Below are positions 11,119 through 19,123 of a DNA stretch of 64,000 bases, piece after piece. Position numbers and translations under genes: made by a program. This DNA comes from Ralstonia sp. NFACC01 (GTDB lineage: Bacteria > Pseudomonadota > Gammaproteobacteria > Burkholderiales > Burkholderiaceae). The stretch lies in contig NZ_FOWV01000010.1 of the NCBI RefSeq assembly GCF_900115545.1, positions 1 through 64,000 of the forward strand. The letters are read 5' to 3'. Positions within the stretch are counted from its first letter, which is position 1; each line of letters starts with the position of its first letter. The notes under the pieces were generated by a model. That model ran no database searches, had not been told where the DNA came from, and saw only the letters and a list, made by a program, of their open reading frames with translations.

Positions 11119-12213
11119 ATGAGCCTCCAATGCGGCATCGTCGGTCTGCCGAACGTCGGCAAGTCGACCCTGTTCAATGCCCTGACCAAAGCCGGCATCG
11201 CTGCCGAGAACTACCCGTTCTGCACGATCGAGCCCAACGTAGGCGTGGTGGAAGTGCCGGATGCCCGCCTGCAAGCGCTGGCCGACATCGTCAAGCCCGA
11301 GCGGGTGCTGCCGGCGGTGGTCGAGTTCGTCGACATTGCGGGCCTGGTGGCGGGCGCCTCCAAGGGTGAAGGCCTGGGCAACCAATTCCTGGCGAACATC
11401 CGCGAGACGGATGCCATCACGCACGTGGTCCGCTGTTTCGAAGATGAAAACGTGATCCACGTCGCCGGCAAGGTCGACCCGATCGCCGACATCGAAGTCA
11501 TCAATACCGAACTGGCCCTCGCTGACCTGGGTACGGTCGAAAAGGCGCTGCAGCGCTACACCAAGGCCGCCAAGTCGGGCAACGACAAGGAAGCCGCCAA
11601 GCTGGTCGCCGTGCTGGAAAAAGCGCAGAAGGTGCTGGATGAAGCCAAGCCCGTGCGCGGCCTGAACCTGACCGACGACGAGTGGGCAACCATCAAGCCG
11701 CTGTGCCTGATCACCGCCAAGCCGACCATGTACGTTGCCAACGTGCGCGAAGACGGCTTCGAGAACAATCCGCACCTGGACGCTGTGCGCAACTACGCTG
11801 CGCAGACGAATTCGCCGGTGGTGGCCGTCTGCGCCGCCATCGAAGCCGAAATCGCGGATCTGGACGACGCCGACAAGGCTGAATTCCTGGCCGACATCGG
11901 CATGGACGAACCCGGCCTGAACCGCGTGATCCGCGCGGCCTTCAAGCTGCTCGGCCTGCAAACTTACTTCACGGCCGGCGTGAAGGAAGTGCGCGCCTGG
12001 ACGATCCACATCGGCGACACGGCCCCGCGTGCCGCTGCGGCCATCCACACCGACTTCGAACGTGGCTTCATCCGCGCGCAGACCATTTCGTACGACGATT
12101 TCATCCAGTTCAAGGGCGAACAAGGTGCCAAGGAAGCCGGCAAGATGCGCGCCGAAGGCAAGGAGTACATCGTCAAGGACGGCGATGTGCTGCACTTCCT
12201 GTTCAACGTCTGA
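11119..12213 (+). CDS. ychF: Redox-regulated ATPase YchF
   Basis: A 364-residue Obg-family P-loop ATPase. The P-loop is GLPNVGKST near the N-terminus, and the switch region [20 protein letters not shown] matches YchF/OLA1. A C-terminal TGS-like domain contains [13 protein letters not shown]. YchF binds ribosomes and uses ATP rather than GTP. Length and ends match the family exactly. The gene stands alone, and a strong terminator follows 17 bases after its stop. Confidence 0.98.
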
Positions 12214-12553: not shown

Positions 12554-14842
12554 ATGAGTTCGCAATCGCCTCCGCCCTTGTCCGTAGTTGATGACGTCGA
12601 TGCCTCGCCCGGTATTGGCAGCCACGCTGCCATCCAGTCGCGCGGGGTGTTGCTATGCCTATCCGAACCCGATTTACGCATCCACCAGGTGAGCGAAAAC
12701 CTGGAGGCTGCGCTGGGTACGCCAGTGGCCACCGCGCTGCAGGCGCCCGTGGACCGTGTGATCGGCACCGCCGGCCGCGAGGTGCTGGAGCGCGCCCTGG
12801 GCACACACAGCATCGACGGCCATCCGCTGTATATCGGCACGCTGCAGACGCCGCACGGCCACGTGCTCGACGCGGTGATGCATCGGCACAAGCGCACGCT
12901 GATCCTGGAGCTGGAACCCGCGGTGCATGCGACCGACGGCGCGTTTGCATCGATGTATCCGCTGGTGCGGACGTTCGTTGCCAGCCTGCAAGCTGTCAGC
13001 ACGGTCGATGCGCTGACGGACCTGGCAGCGCGCGAAGTCCGCCGCCTTACGCACTTCGGCCGCGTCACGATCTATCGCATTGACCGCGATGGCTCCTTGC
13101 AGGCACTCGCCGAAGCGCGCGATGAGGCCTATGACACGCTGGTCGGCACGCACCTGTCTGGAGCCGGCATGACGCCCGAACTCCGCAACCTGTATAGCCA
13201 CAACCCCTTGCGTCTCGTGGCAGACGTCGACGATACGCCGGTGGGTCTGGTGCCGCCGCTGCATCCGTACACCGGGCGCGCGACTGATCTGACGTACGCG
13301 GCGCTGCGCGCGGCGTCCGAGGCGCAGCGCCAAACCATGCGCCGCATGGGCGCGAAGGCCTCGCTCACGCTGGCGCTTACAGTGCGAGGCGACCTCTGGG
13401 GCCTGATCGCCTGCCACCATGCGACGCCATGCTCTTTGTCGTTTGAAGTGCGCACGGCATGCGAACACCTCGCGCAAATTCTGTCGCTGCAGATCGAAGC
13501 GAAGGAAGACCGTGCCGAGATCGCCCACCGGCTGGAACTGAGACGCATCCTGGTGCGCCTGCTGGCCGCAATGGCGGATCGTGACCATTTTCAGGAAGGT
13601 CTGATCGAACATCCCGCCGATCTGCTGAGCTTTGCCTCGGCCAGCGGCGCCGCCATCGTGCGCCAGGGCGAGTGTGTGCGCATCGGTGCCGCGCCTGACG
13701 AAGACAGCATCCTGCGCCTGACCGAATGGCTGGCCGATGAGCACCCTGGCGATGTCTTCCACACCGACCATCTGGCCGCCGCCTATCCGGACGGCGCCGA
13801 ACTGCTGCCCCAGGCCAGCGGCGTGCTTGCTGTGCAGGTTTCGCAACTGCATCGCCACTACGTGCTGTGGTTCCGTCCCGAAACCCCGCACACCGTACGG
13901 TGGGCGGGCGACATGCCGGACCCGGCCACCGCTCACGATACCGGGCAGATGCTCGCACGCACGCATTATTGGCACGAGCACATCGCACGCACATCGCGCC
14001 CGTGGCGTACGAGCGAAGTGGAAACCGCTGCGGAGTTCCGCTACGCCGTGCTCAACATCGTGCTGCGCCGCGCCGAAGAAGCCGCGGAGTTGACCAGCGA
14101 GTTGCGCCGCGCCAATCACGAGCTGGAAGCGTTCTCGTATTCCGTTTCGCATGACTTGCGCGCGCCGCTGCGCCACATTGCCGGCTATGCGGAATTGCTC
14201 GACGAGATGGAGGGTGAGCACGTCTCGGCGCGCGGGCGGCATTTTCTGCAAACGATCTCGGAGTCGTCGCGCTTTGCGGGCAAGCTCGTCGACGACCTGC
14301 TGACCTTCTCGCAGATGGGGCGCGGCGCGCTCCACCTGACCGATGTCGACCTCGCGCAACTCGTACGCGGCATCGTCCGCGACCTGACGATTGACCAAGG
14401 GCGTCGCCATATCGAATGGAACATCGCCGCGCTGCCGGTGGTGCGCGCCGACCCGACATTCCTGCAACTGGCGATGCGCAATCTGCTCTCCAACGCCGTC
14501 AAATACACGCGTGACCGTGATCCGGCGCGCATCCATATCGACGCCGAACAGACCGACGCCGAAACCATCGTGCGCGTTGCCGACAACGGCGTGGGATTCT
14601 CGATGGAATACGTGGCCAAGCTGTTCGGCGTGTTCCAGCGGCTGCATCGCATGGACGAATTCGAGGGGACCGGCATCGGCCTGGCCAATGTGCGGCGCAT
14701 CATCGATCGCCATGGCGGCCGCACCTGGGCCGAGGGCGAGCTCAATCGCGGCGCAACGTTCTACTTCGCGCTGCCGCGCACGCCCGACCCGCAGGCGGCA
14801 TCCAGGACGGGCCTGCACACACCCGCGACTCGCGATACCTGA
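12554..14842 (+). CDS. Phytochrome-like sensor histidine kinase with degenerate chromophore pocket
   Basis: A 762-residue protein with the bacteriophytochrome order PAS (about 12-115), GAF (135-310), PHY (320-500), HisKA (about 520-590) and HATPase (630-745). The phosphoacceptor His is residue 533 in YSVSHDLRAPL, and the ATP-site motifs look intact. By my alignment to typical bacteriophytochromes, the biliverdin-attaching Cys is Asp16, the GAF PASDIP Asp is Gly205, the pocket His and Tyr are Gln258 and Thr261, and the PHY PRxSF motif is replaced by residues 466-470 (MLART). Only the ACHH motif (286-289) remains. It probably does not bind bilin covalently. No heme oxygenase gene is nearby. Two response-regulator genes follow. 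Confidence 0.88.
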   Translation: MSSQSPPPLSVVDDVDASPGIGSHAAIQSRGVLLCLSEPDLRIHQVSENLEAALGTPVATALQAPVDRVIGTAGREVLERALGTHSIDGHPLYIGTLQTPHGHVLDAVMHRHKRTLILELEPAVHATDGAFASMYPLVRTFVASLQAVSTVDALTDLAAREVRRLTHFGRVTIYRIDRDGSLQALAEARDEAYDTLVGTHLSGAGMTPELRNLYSHNPLRLVADVDDTPVGLVPPLHPYTGRATDLTYAALRAASEAQRQTMRRMGAKASLTLALTVRGDLWGLIACHHATPCSLSFEVRTACEHLAQILSLQIEAKEDRAEIAHRLELRRILVRLLAAMADRDHFQEGLIEHPADLLSFASASGAAIVRQGECVRIGAAPDEDSILRLTEWLADEHPGDVFHTDHLAAAYPDGAELLPQASGVLAVQVSQLHRHYVLWFRPETPHTVRWAGDMPDPATAHDTGQMLARTHYWHEHIARTSRPWRTSEVETAAEFRYAVLNIVLRRAEEAAELTSELRRANHELEAFSYSVSHDLRAPLRHIAGYAELLDEMEGEHVSARGRHFLQTISESSRFAGKLVDDLLTFSQMGRGALHLTDVDLAQLVRGIVRDLTIDQGRRHIEWNIAALPVVRADPTFLQLAMRNLLSNAVKYTRDRDPARIHIDAEQTDAETIVRVADNGVGFSMEYVAKLFGVFQRLHRMDEFEGTGIGLANVRRIIDRHGGRTWAEGELNRGATFYFALPRTPDPQAASRTGLHTPATRDT

Positions 14843-14868: not shown

Positions 14869-15336
14869 ATGCTCAAACCCATCCTGCTCGTCGAAGACAA
14901 CCCAAACGACCTCGAGCTGACCCTGCTGGCGCTGGAGCGTAGCCAACTCGCCAACGATGTGGTCGTCACGCGCGATGGCGCCGAGGCACTGGATTACCTG
15001 CACGCACGCAACCTTTACGCGCAACGCGTGCCGGGCAACCCGGCTGTGGTGTTGCTCGACTTGAAGCTGCCGAAGGTCGACGGCCTGGAAGTGCTGGCCG
15101 AGATTCGCGCCACGCCCGTGCTCAAGAGCCTGCCGGTGGTCATGCTCACCTCGTCGAGAGAAGAAACCGACCTCTTGCGCAGCTACGAGCTGGGCGTCAA
15201 CGCCTATGTGGTCAAACCGGTGGAATTCCGCGCGTTTGTCGATGCGATTGCCGATCTGGGGGTATTCTGGGCAGTGCTCAACGAACCGCCGCCTGGCTCC
15301 ACCCGGGCACGCCGTACGTTGCTGCCGGCGAGCTAG
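14869..15336 (+). CDS. Rcp1-like single-domain response regulator
   Basis: A 155-residue stand-alone receiver domain. The acidic pair is in LLVEDNPNDLEL, the phosphoacceptor is Asp64 in VVLLDLKLPK, and the conserved Lys is in YVVKPVEF. The extended loop after the phospho-Asp strand is typical of Rcp1, the partner of phytochrome kinases. There is no output domain, so it must signal through protein contacts or phosphotransfer. It starts 26 bases after the phytochrome-like kinase and 26 bases before the hybrid kinase, consistent with one operon. Confidence 0.92.
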   Translation: MLKPILLVEDNPNDLELTLLALERSQLANDVVVTRDGAEALDYLHARNLYAQRVPGNPAVVLLDLKLPKVDGLEVLAEIRATPVLKSLPVVMLTSSREETDLLRSYELGVNAYVVKPVEFRAFVDAIADLGVFWAVLNEPPPGSTRARRTLLPAS

Positions 15337-15362: not shown

Positions 15363-17321
15363 ATGCCCAATCTGCAACTGCTGCTGGTCGAAGACAATCC
15401 GCTCGACGCAGAACTGACGCGCGCGCGACTGGAAACCGCCAACCTGCAGGCCGACACCACGCTGGTCGACAACGAGACCGACTTCGTCGCCCAGCTCAGC
15501 GCACGGACCTTCGATGCCATCCTGGCCGACTACATGCTGCCGCAATTCACGGGGGCGGAGGCGCTGGACATTGCGCGCCGCATGGCGCCGCAAACGCCAT
15601 TTATCTTCGTATCGGGTGCGCTGGGCGAGGAACATGCGGTGGACATGCTCAAGCGCGGCGCCACCGATTACGTCATCAAGCAGCGCCTGCAGCGCCTGCC
15701 CGTGGTGCTGTTGCGCGCGCTGGCCGAAGCCGCCGAACGCCGCCAGCGCATCGCTGCCGAAGCGGCCCTGCGGGAAGCGGAAACGCACTTTCGCCTGCTG
15801 ATCAACGCACTCAAGGAGCACGCCGTGCTCTCGCTAGACCCGCAGGGCATCGTGCGCACCTGGAACGCGGCATCGCGCAGCATTCTCGGCTATGCGCGCG
15901 AGGACATCCTCGGCAAGTCGGCCGAGATTCTGTATCCGCAGGCTGCGCGCGAGGCCGGTGAATTCCAGCGCAAGCTCGAACGCGCGCGCCGCGAAGGCAG
16001 CCTCACCGACGACCGCTGGATGTTGCGCAAGGACGGCACGCCGTTTTACGCATCAAGCGTGGTCACCGCCATCCACAACGAGACCGGGCAACTGGTCGGC
16101 TTCTCCAAGATCATCCGCGACTCCACCGAAGAGCGCATCGCGGCCGACGCCCTGCGCCGTGCCAAGGAAGAAGCCGAGACCGCCAACCACGCCAAGGACC
16201 ACTTCCTGGCCGTGCTCTCGCACGAACTGCGCACGCCGCTCACGCCCATCCTGACCGCCGTGCATCTGCTGGAACTGCGCCAGGATTTGCCGGCGTATGT
16301 AGTCGCACAGCTTGAAGTCGTGCGCCGCAATGCCGAGCTGGAAGCGCGCCTGATCGACGACCTGCTCGACATCACCGGCATTGCACGCGGCAAGCTGGCA
16401 GTCAGCTTCGCGCTGGTCGACCTGTATCCGTTGCTGGAGAGCACGCTGGAGATGTCGCGCAACGACATGCAGGCCAAGCGGCTGTCGCTCAAGACGCGCT
16501 TCGAAGCAGGCCGTAGCCGGCTGTACGCCGACGGCGCGCGCATCCAACAAGTGATCTGGAACCTCGTGCGCAACGCGGTCAAGTTTACGCCCGAAGGCGG
16601 CGCCATCGAGGTACGGGTCTGGAACCCGTCGCCCTCTGCCGTTGCCGTGTCCGTGAAGGACAACGGCATCGGCATCGAACCCGAAGCGCTGCCGCGCATC
16701 TTCTCGGCGTTCGAACAGGCCGATGCATCGATCACACAGCGTTTTGGCGGGCTCGGCCTGGGCCTGGCGATTGCCTATGCGCTGGTGCAGAAGCATGAAG
16801 GCTCGCTGATTGCCGAGAGCGCCGGCCGCCACGAGGGGGCCACGTTCACGCTCACACTGCCCTTGGCCACCGAGATGGTGCAGCCCGAGACACCGCCCTC
16901 CCCGCCCTTGCCTCGCGCCCAACCAACGCGCGGCCTGCACGTGCTGCTGGTGGAAGACAACGCCGATACTGCCGAAGCCATGTCGCGAATGCTGGAGATT
17001 CTCGGCCACAGCGTCGCCGTGGCCAATAGTGCCCGCACGGCCATGCAAGCCGCTGAGTCTGGCGTGTTCGATCTGCTGATCAGCGATATTGGTCTGCCGG
17101 ACGGCAGCGGCCTGGACGTGGTGCGCGTGTTTGCGGAGCGGCAAGCCGCACCATCAATCGCGATTACGGGCTATGGCATGGAAGAAGACATCGCCCGCTG
17201 CCAGGAGGCGGGCTTTACCGATCACCTGACCAAACCGGTGGACTTCAAGCGGCTGGAAACGCTGATGGCCGGATATCTGGCCGCACGCGATGCGCGCGCC
17301 GCCGACGTGGGCGCGGGCTGA
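15363..17321 (+). CDS. Hybrid sensor histidine kinase (REC-PAS-HisKA-HATPase-REC)
   Basis: A 652-residue cytoplasmic kinase. It has an N-terminal receiver (residues 1-125, phospho-Asp in ILADYMLPQ), a PAS domain (about 135-255), HisKA with His287 in VLSHELRTPL, an HATPase domain with DNGIGIEPEALPRIF, and a C-terminal receiver (about 525-640, phospho-Asp in LLISDIGLPDG). There are no transmembrane segments. Input probably arrives by phosphotransfer from the upstream kinase. The locus encodes no DNA-binding or HPt domain, so the final output is elsewhere in the genome. Confidence 0.93.
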   Translation: MPNLQLLLVEDNPLDAELTRARLETANLQADTTLVDNETDFVAQLSARTFDAILADYMLPQFTGAEALDIARRMAPQTPFIFVSGALGEEHAVDMLKRGATDYVIKQRLQRLPVVLLRALAEAAERRQRIAAEAALREAETHFRLLINALKEHAVLSLDPQGIVRTWNAASRSILGYAREDILGKSAEILYPQAAREAGEFQRKLERARREGSLTDDRWMLRKDGTPFYASSVVTAIHNETGQLVGFSKIIRDSTEERIAADALRRAKEEAETANHAKDHFLAVLSHELRTPLTPILTAVHLLELRQDLPAYVVAQLEVVRRNAELEARLIDDLLDITGIARGKLAVSFALVDLYPLLESTLEMSRNDMQAKRLSLKTRFEAGRSRLYADGARIQQVIWNLVRNAVKFTPEGGAIEVRVWNPSPSAVAVSVKDNGIGIEPEALPRIFSAFEQADASITQRFGGLGLGLAIAYALVQKHEGSLIAESAGRHEGATFTLTLPLATEMVQPETPPSPPLPRAQPTRGLHVLLVEDNADTAEAMSRMLEILGHSVAVANSARTAMQAAESGVFDLLISDIGLPDGSGLDVVRVFAERQAAPSIAITGYGMEEDIARCQEAGFTDHLTKPVDFKRLETLMAGYLAARDARAADVGAG

Positions 17322-17815: not shown

Positions 17816-19123
17816 ATGCAGTTGCTGACGCTCGGAATCAACCACCACACTGCGCCGCTTTCCCTGCGCGAGAAGGTGGCGTTTCCGCTCGAGCAGCTCA
17901 AGCCCGCGCTGGGCACGCTGCGCCAGCACCTACCGCACCTCAGAAGCACGGCCGAAGCGGCCATCCTTTCCACCTGCAATCGCACTGAAATCTACTGCGC
18001 AACCGACGGCAACCTGCCCGAGCAGACCGCGCACGAGCATGCGATTCGCTGGCTGGCACAGCACCACAACATCGACGCCGGCGAACTCGCGCCCCATGTG
18101 TATTCGCTCGGCCAGTCGCTGGCGGTACGTCACGCGTTCCGCGTGGCCAGCGGGCTCGATTCGATGGTGCTGGGTGAAACGCAGATCCTCGGCCAGATGA
18201 AAGACGCCGTGCGCACCGCCACCGAGGCGGGCGCCCTGGGCACATACCTGAATCAGCTATTCCAGCGCACCTTTGCAGTGGCCAAGGAAGTGCGCGGCAC
18301 GACGGAGATCGGCGCGCATTCCGTGTCGATGGCCGCTGCCGCCGTGCGCCTGGCGCAGCGCATCTTCGAATCGATCGCGGATCAGCGCGTATTGTTCATT
18401 GGCGCCGGCGAAATGATCGAGCTGTGCGCCACCCACTTCGCCGCGCAGACGCCACGTGAAGTGGTGATCGCCAACCGCACGCTGGAACGCGGCGAGAAAC
18501 TCGCCGAATCGCTGTCGAACCAGGGCCTGAACGCTCGCGCCGTGCGCCTGGCCGAACTGCCGACCAAGCTCGCCGAGTTCGACATCGTGGTCTCCTGCAC
18601 CGCCAGCACGCTGCCCATCATCGGCCTGGGTGCCGTGGAGCGCGCCATCAAGCAGCGCCGCCACCGCCCGATGTTCATGGTCGACCTGGCCGTGCCGCGC
18701 GACATCGAACCCGAAGTCGCGCGCCTGTCCGACGTATTCCTCTACACCGTGGATGACCTGGGCGCCATCGTGCGCGAGGGCAACGCCCTGCGGCAGGCTG
18801 CCGTGGCACAGGCCGAGGCCATTATCGAAACGCGCGTGCTGAACTTCATGCACTGGCTCGACGCGCGCAGCGTGGTGCCCGTCATCCGGGATCTGCACGC
18901 GCAGGCCGAAACGCTGCGCCAAGGTGAGCTGGAACGCGCCCAGCGCATGCTCGCGCGCGGCGATGACCCGGCGCAGGTGCTTGAAGCGCTGTCGCAGGCG
19001 CTGACCAAGAAATTCCTCCACGGCCCGACGCATGCGCTCAACCACGCGCAGGGCGAAGGCCGCGAACAGCTCATCGACCTGCTGCCGGCGTTGTTCCGCC
19101 AGTCCAGCCACTCCGAGCGCTAG
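17816..19123 (+). CDS. hemA: Glutamyl-tRNA reductase HemA
   Basis: A 435-residue enzyme that reduces glutamyl-tRNA(Glu) to glutamate-1-semialdehyde, the first committed step of C5-pathway heme synthesis. The catalytic Cys54 is in STCNRTEIY. The NADPH-binding region has [16 protein letters not shown], and the conserved [12 protein letters not shown] follows. The dimerisation domain is at the C-terminus. Length is normal. It heads the cluster hemA-prfA-(lipoprotein)-prmC-grxD-ubiX, a common betaproteobacterial order. Confidence 0.98.

Follow-up and report, generated by a model that had tools for sequence, protein, structure and literature searches.

Does a protein that keeps the whole architecture of a bacteriophytochrome kinase necessarily remain a light sensor? 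This question is raised by a gene of Ralstonia sp. NFACC01 found in the window, that is, in the whole stretch of 64,000 nucleotides analysed here. The gene (positions 12554..14842, + strand) encodes a 762-aa protein in which Pfam recognises PAS_2 (residues 25-123), GAF (152-315), PHY (330-507), HisKA (525-590) and HATPase_c (633-743), all five above their cut-offs, which reproduces the frame, strand, length and PAS-GAF-PHY-HisKA-HATPase order given in an earlier sequence-only reading of this DNA. With a histidine kinase attached to a PAS_2-GAF-PHY photosensory module, and with full-length bacteriophytochromes as its closest PDB chains by sequence, this product is a bacteriophytochrome by fold and descent. 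The NCBIfam model for bacteriophytochrome BphP (NF041576) matches it at residues 20-499 with 177 bits, far below the curated cut-off of 1040 bits. Taking together reading frame, Pfam domains and alignment, the protein is annotated here as a light-blind bacteriophytochrome-type histidine kinase.

The gene is preceded by ychF (11119-12213, named by Pfam), and the block of genes to which it belongs is followed by a gene at 17816-19123, downstream of a hybrid kinase, which we take to be hemA. A 714-aa open reading frame on the opposite strand (12674-14818) was put down to a by-product of GC-rich coding. The named near relatives of the organism are R. pickettii strains, R. soli, other Ralstonia and two records labelled 'Burkholderiaceae bacterium'. 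In one genome of the genus, that of Ralstonia sp. TCR112, hemA (L040, 11260-12563) is split over two frames of a draft contig, which is probably a sequencing error.

Pocket residues were located in a MAFFT alignment of 151 rows, comprising Ralstonia, Pseudomonas, Noviherbaspirillum and family bacteriophytochromes together with the DrBphP chain sequence, from which the numbering was set; the native number of a DrBphP residue was assumed to be its chain index minus 14. The aspartate of the PASDIP motif (D207) falls on G205 (codon 13166..13168, +), H260 and Y263 fall on Q258 and T261 within the QRQT of codons 258-261 (13325..13336, +), and the PRxSF motif of the PHY tongue is replaced by M466-L467-A468-R469-T470 (codons 466-470, 13949..13963, +). 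These codons were rechecked, and the losses previously read by hand at Gly205, Gln258, Thr261 and residues 466-470 are borne out. The biliverdin cysteine, which had been assigned to Asp16, has to be shifted by one residue, the Cys24 column lying on V15. Neither a Cys nor an Asp is placed by this sequence alignment with DrBphP at the C24 and D207 positions of the window's protein, no cysteine is present in its residues 1-34, and none is encoded in the 36 open codons upstream.

Surveyed across the genus, the same pocket substitutions prove to be common to 12 of 12 Ralstonia orthologues, except for the loss of D207, which affects 11 of them. Thus, C24, H260, Y263, P465, R466 and F469 are all missing in the twelve proteins, none of which has an N-terminal biliverdin-binding cysteine (the Cys24 column reads I in nine, V in two and T in one). 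The GAF column in which plant and cyanobacterial phytochromes carry their bilin cysteine, beside the pocket histidine, is Ala in 12/12. The only protein with D207, which is not that of the window, is a 75%-identical orthologue (L019, genome G002) that reads PGTDLTP; its gene appears again, as L044, in a metagenome-assembled genome. In a quick tree this orthologue is the deepest-branching member of the Ralstonia clade, and its PASDIP-type aspartate suggests an order of loss in which Asp went after Cys, His, Tyr and PRxSF.

Part of the pocket survives, a point absent from the earlier note: Y216, R222, R254, S257 and H290 are retained in all twelve orthologues, so that binding of a ligand, even a non-covalent bilin, would be possible. 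R222 and R254 are presumably the propionate-binding arginines, as in DrBphP. S272 is retained in 11/12, and S274 is Thr in 12/12. Eight new residues (A25, R30, A253, Q258, T272, L467, T470 and I477) are fixed throughout the twelve proteins.

How unusual such a loss is can be judged from the family. Among the matches listed, 129 family loci give 131 open reading frames, 127 of which have all five of C24, D207, H260, Y263 and R466 (CDHYR), and by this comparison the loss of the pocket in Ralstonia is not due to chance. Four rows remain: two are the pieces of L194, a split gene, one is L196, which has His at R466, and the last, L198, lacks all five. At least eight family matches are absent from these loci, namely G173, G393, G031:C77, G072:C21, G233:C57, G037:C3, G203:C40 and G271:C10, of which G031:C77 was later added to the phylum set; the later match set is limited to new rows with a PHY match of about 2e-24 or stronger. 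In the phylum sample, C24, D207, H260 and Y263 are all present at 67 of 69 loci, the other two lacking one each.

A test over conserved columns was carried out with 135 canonical rows, from which L198 and both pieces of L194 were excluded. At a threshold of at least 95% of these rows, 73 sensor columns count as conserved; 19 are assigned to the pocket and 54 lie elsewhere. Taking a column as kept when at least 10 of the 12 Ralstonia rows retain it, the genus keeps 8/19 of the former vs 39/54 of the latter (Fisher p 0.026) and 25/25 of the conserved kinase columns; among the lost 'outside' columns, several adjoin the pocket. With the gene present in 12 of 16 Ralstonia genomes, its own included, the claim of a pocket lost beside an intact kinase is upheld. 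The Ralstonia proteins form one clade among the canonical ones (SH-aLRT 100) in a tree of 46 rows, including 27 of the 129 family rows chosen at less than 72% identity, which was built without the pocket columns by a quick method with no bootstrap and carries a long-branch warning outside the Ralstonia clade.

The supply of pigment was then considered. No match to the heme oxygenase family PF01126 was obtained in any of the 16 Ralstonia genomes. Across 398 family genomes, a PF01126 match accompanies PHY in 81 of 92 genomes outside Ralstonia and in 0 of 12 Ralstonia genomes; where PHY is lacking, 5 of 294 genomes give a match, one of which is below the cut-off. The association is also one of position, since 79 of the 80 heme oxygenase rows compared have a PHY match no more than 6 kb away; eight further rows, outside that comparison, are by eye not near one. 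Outside Ralstonia, the eleven PHY genomes without PF01126 are G177, G313 (with the split L194), G134, G393 and seven in which the five key residues are all present (G038, G073, G111, G208, G278, G344 and G349). It has to be noted that, because of these seven, absence of PF01126 alone is no proof of blindness.

A match to PF01126 is found in 6/7 of the genomes harbouring the nearest Pseudomonas and Noviherbaspirillum homologues, Pseudomonas sp. TH10 being the only one of the seven without it. Near the canonical BphP of this strain (L050, 5494-5705), heme-oxygenase-like pieces occur in two overlapping frames, which would represent a broken gene or an assembly error.

The output half of the protein presents a different picture, having the phospho-acceptor histidine and the conserved columns of a two-component histidine kinase. 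H533 (codon 14150..14152, +) is found in 12/12 orthologues, in agreement with the earlier view that the kinase motifs are kept. The linker between W484 and H533 measures 49 residues in the 12 Ralstonia proteins, in the seven BphPs from the nearest Pseudomonas and Noviherbaspirillum loci (L045-L051) and in 116 of 129 family rows; in the other 13 it measures 39. Downstream lies a single-domain response regulator of 155 aa (14869..15336, +), whose D64 is taken by reading as the phospho-acceptor, and then a 652-aa hybrid kinase with the order REC-PAS-HisKA-HATPase-REC (15363..17321, +), third gene of the presumed operon. The regulator is 72-80% identical to those adjoining the canonical BphPs of L045-L051, whereas the BphP of the window is only 44-47% identical to its counterparts there. 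Domain order, linker length and an adjacent response regulator are thus common to the Ralstonia locus and these pairs, which differ from it in keeping Cys, PASDIP, His, Tyr and PRxSF in 7/7. A similar regulator is present in 88 of the 129 family loci, most of which are shorter than 4 kb. In six Pseudomonas loci, the regulator is directly followed by a match to the REC part of the hybrid kinase, and by this token the hybrid kinase may be a control input of the blind kinase.

The gene is proposed to descend from an ordinary red-light bacteriophytochrome kinase adjoining its response regulator; the Ralstonia lineage has since lost both the biliverdin site and, in the PHY tongue, the PRxSF switch. 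With both lost, and with no PF01126 match, red/far-red sensing would therefore be very unlikely, and the protein probably signals now without light. PAS-GAF-PHY may persist as a folded dimer scaffold, joined to the kinase through the linker of unchanged length. As there would be no Pr/Pfr switch without pigment and PRxSF, the kinase would most likely be held in a kinase-competent, Pr-like conformation and would phosphorylate the neighbouring regulator (H533 to D64), control being exerted through gene expression, the partner hybrid kinase or a non-light cue. We infer kinase activity, the Pr-like state and the choice of partner from sequence. In sum, the explanation that we favour, and that we hold to be reasonably likely, is a light-blind BphP kinase, descended from a red-light BphP, whose signal to the old regulator is either driven by a cue other than light or nearly constitutive.

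Some published observations bear on the resting state. In bacterial phytochromes, Pr is the kinase-active form according to PMC11021371. PMC11164954 describes DrBphP as a phosphatase only, without kinase activity, and output as set by the balance between kinase and phosphatase. Taking into account this phosphatase-only behaviour of DrBphP, a kinase-competent resting state cannot be assumed. According to PMC6879726, signalling can require a BphP where its sensing of light quality is not required (apo-bacteriophytochromes RpBphP2/P3; see also Fixen et al. 2014); the Ralstonia case may be alike in this respect, and RpBphP2/P3 are set apart by being described as light sensors. The 12-genome clade, together with one independent case, constitutes a natural experiment on what a phytochrome retains once light is no longer the signal, and it raises the question of whether tongue and pocket serve light only or basal kinase control too. 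It also cautions that the domain order of a PAS-GAF-PHY kinase is not sufficient by itself to name a photoreceptor.

The first alternative to this light-blind, regulator-feeding kinase is that the pocket has been repurposed, so that the GAF cavity, which keeps two propionate arginines, would bind some other ligand, anionic or tetrapyrrole, and the kinase would be switched by it. This reading, which we consider unlikely, is consistent with the retention of R222, R254, Y216, S257 and H290 in 12/12 despite changed neighbours and with the eight fixed replacements. It also gains from L198, in which R222 and S257 are changed, a sign that the fold may not by itself require their retention in Ralstonia. 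The variability of the lost positions speaks against it: only 7/22 of the lost canonical columns (residues 25-507) are invariant in Ralstonia, vs 260/483 of the sensor columns and 37/47 of the kept ones.

Rates of divergence were compared as well. Median dN over median dS in 66 Ralstonia pairs is 0.16 for PAS, 0.12 for GAF, 0.19 for PHY, 0.30 for the tongue and 0.06 for the kinase. Canonical pairs (2253) gave a yardstick with a median of 0.21 for GAF and 0.24 for kinase, vs 0.13 and 0.07 in 61 pairs from Ralstonia, but it was not relied on, as dS estimates are distrusted in these GC-rich genomes. The measure adopted in its place is protein divergence relative to the kinase in 60 Ralstonia and 783 canonical pairs, whose mean kinase divergence is 0.058 and 0.090, respectively. 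On this scale, the tongue diverges 4.7 times as much as the kinase in Ralstonia vs 1.2 times in the canonical pairs, GAF 2.2 vs 1.1 and PHY 2.5 vs 1.4, PAS following the reverse trend (2.6 vs 3.1). The variable lost columns and the fast tongue suggest a release of constraint more than any re-optimisation of the pocket, the eight fixed replacements notwithstanding. Of the former proposal of a repurposed sensor rather than a dead gene, the second half stands, the gene being under purifying selection, with open frames and dN/dS below 0.31 in all parts tested; repurposing receives less support, as the lost pocket columns and the tongue vary more than the rest.

A second case of loss is found in another genus of the same family. 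L198 (G177, contig C1, 1347458-1349134, - strand; also recorded as L288) reads A, E, Q, Q and E at C24, D207, H260, Y263 and R466, and its PAS domain carries a long insert of low complexity. The tree pairs it with a canonical protein, L113 (SH-aLRT 100), which has no loss at any conserved column. Of 29 loci from the genus to which G177 belongs, 28 read CDHYR and one has a gap at Cys (nine of the 29 belong to genomes of the family set). Judging by this placement, the pocket of L198 was lost independently of Ralstonia. Conserved columns were largely lost in common: 15 by both, 11 by Ralstonia alone and 8 by L198 alone, with 39 kept in both (p 0.0006), which means that L198 lost 15/26 of the columns lost in Ralstonia vs 8/47 of those kept there. 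In both, H260 became Gln, Q211 became Glu and S276 became Ala. G177 has no PF01126 match, and the regulator adjoining L198 is 69% identical to that of the window. Among 116 further genomes of that genus, none gave a match to L198 above 67% identity. The dN/dS values between L198 and L113 (about 0.41 in GAF, 0.90 in the tongue and 0.23 in the kinase) indicate a relaxed sensor, so that L198 may represent decay. A bolder combination can be advanced tentatively, as an improbable one: BphPs could be blinded repeatedly by one route (at least twice in the family, at largely the same columns, with no PF01126 and with kinase, regulator and linker kept), and the Ralstonia half-pocket, with both propionate arginines, would use the inherited phytochrome relay to sense an anionic ligand that is new to it.

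A thiol-based or other redox sensor is the next alternative. In R. palustris, BphP4 is reported to have turned from a light sensor into another (redox) sensor after losing chromophore binding; the title of Vuillet et al. 2007 bears out this Rhodopseudomonas precedent of the earlier note. The Ralstonia protein would be alike in having changed from a light sensor after loss of chromophore binding. It differs in that the R. palustris host is a photosynthetic alphaproteobacterium, that the loss in Ralstonia is common to 12 genomes of the genus and goes together with no PF01126 match, and that the Ralstonia cysteines give little support to a thiol or redox role. Thus, C35, C303 and C374 are Cys in 12/12 orthologues and C287 and C293 in 11/12, and the C293 column holds eight residue types and no Cys in 135 canonical rows, which would suit such a role; but Cys also occurs in canonical rows at C35 (23/135), C303 (82/135) and C374 (6/135, the six being Pseudomonas), C287 is ancestral (Cys in 135/135, Arg in one orthologue) and C293 is His in the deepest-branching orthologue. 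No cysteine proved both Ralstonia-specific and invariant when the 12 orthologues were set against those 135 rows. After this comparison redox sensing was dropped as the first-choice reading, and we now find it doubtful. No published account of the Ralstonia light-blind protein was found in titles and abstracts, subscription papers lying outside this scope, and the fuller literature may hold one.

A cysteine is not strictly required for non-covalent bilin binding. The protein could then still be a light sensor, with biliverdin bound non-covalently and obtained from outside or from an enzyme outside PF01126; fold and propionate residues are kept, and the seven canonical-pocket genomes likewise lack a PF01126 match, but H260, Y263, D207 and the tongue motif are gone together and PF01126 is matched in 0/16 genomes of the genus, which makes this reading very improbable.

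In four of the 16 Ralstonia genomes (G004, G010, G011 and G013), tblastn (E 1e-8) gave no match to BphP, regulator or hybrid kinase between ychF and hemA. This absence in 4/16, together with GAF and PHY outpacing the kinase more than in canonical pairs (PAS doing the opposite), might suggest a decaying gene en route to loss, a reading made highly unlikely by frames open across the five domains in 12/12, dN/dS of 0.06 to 0.19 in PAS, GAF, PHY and kinase, and the 25/25 kinase columns kept. Regarding those frames, the match in the orthologue of G001 (protein length 757) passes one stop near the C-terminus. A frame of G013 (L020) was rejected as an orthologue, being without PAS-GAF-PHY.

Finally, another kind of photoreceptor is distributed unevenly in the genus. 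A LOV protein is described in R. pseudosolanacearum (PMC8282871, PMC12802281), the only photoreceptor protein detected according to PMC8282871. The four genomes without the operon are not equated here with the wilt complex. An exact LOV-motif pattern, which motif variants would escape, is found in these four and in G002, and in none of the other 11 of the 16 genomes (G000-G015); its association with absence of the operon gives a Fisher p of 0.003, phylogeny being ignored. LOV motif and light-blind phytochrome are thus almost mutually exclusive in the Ralstonia genomes, both being present in G002 only.
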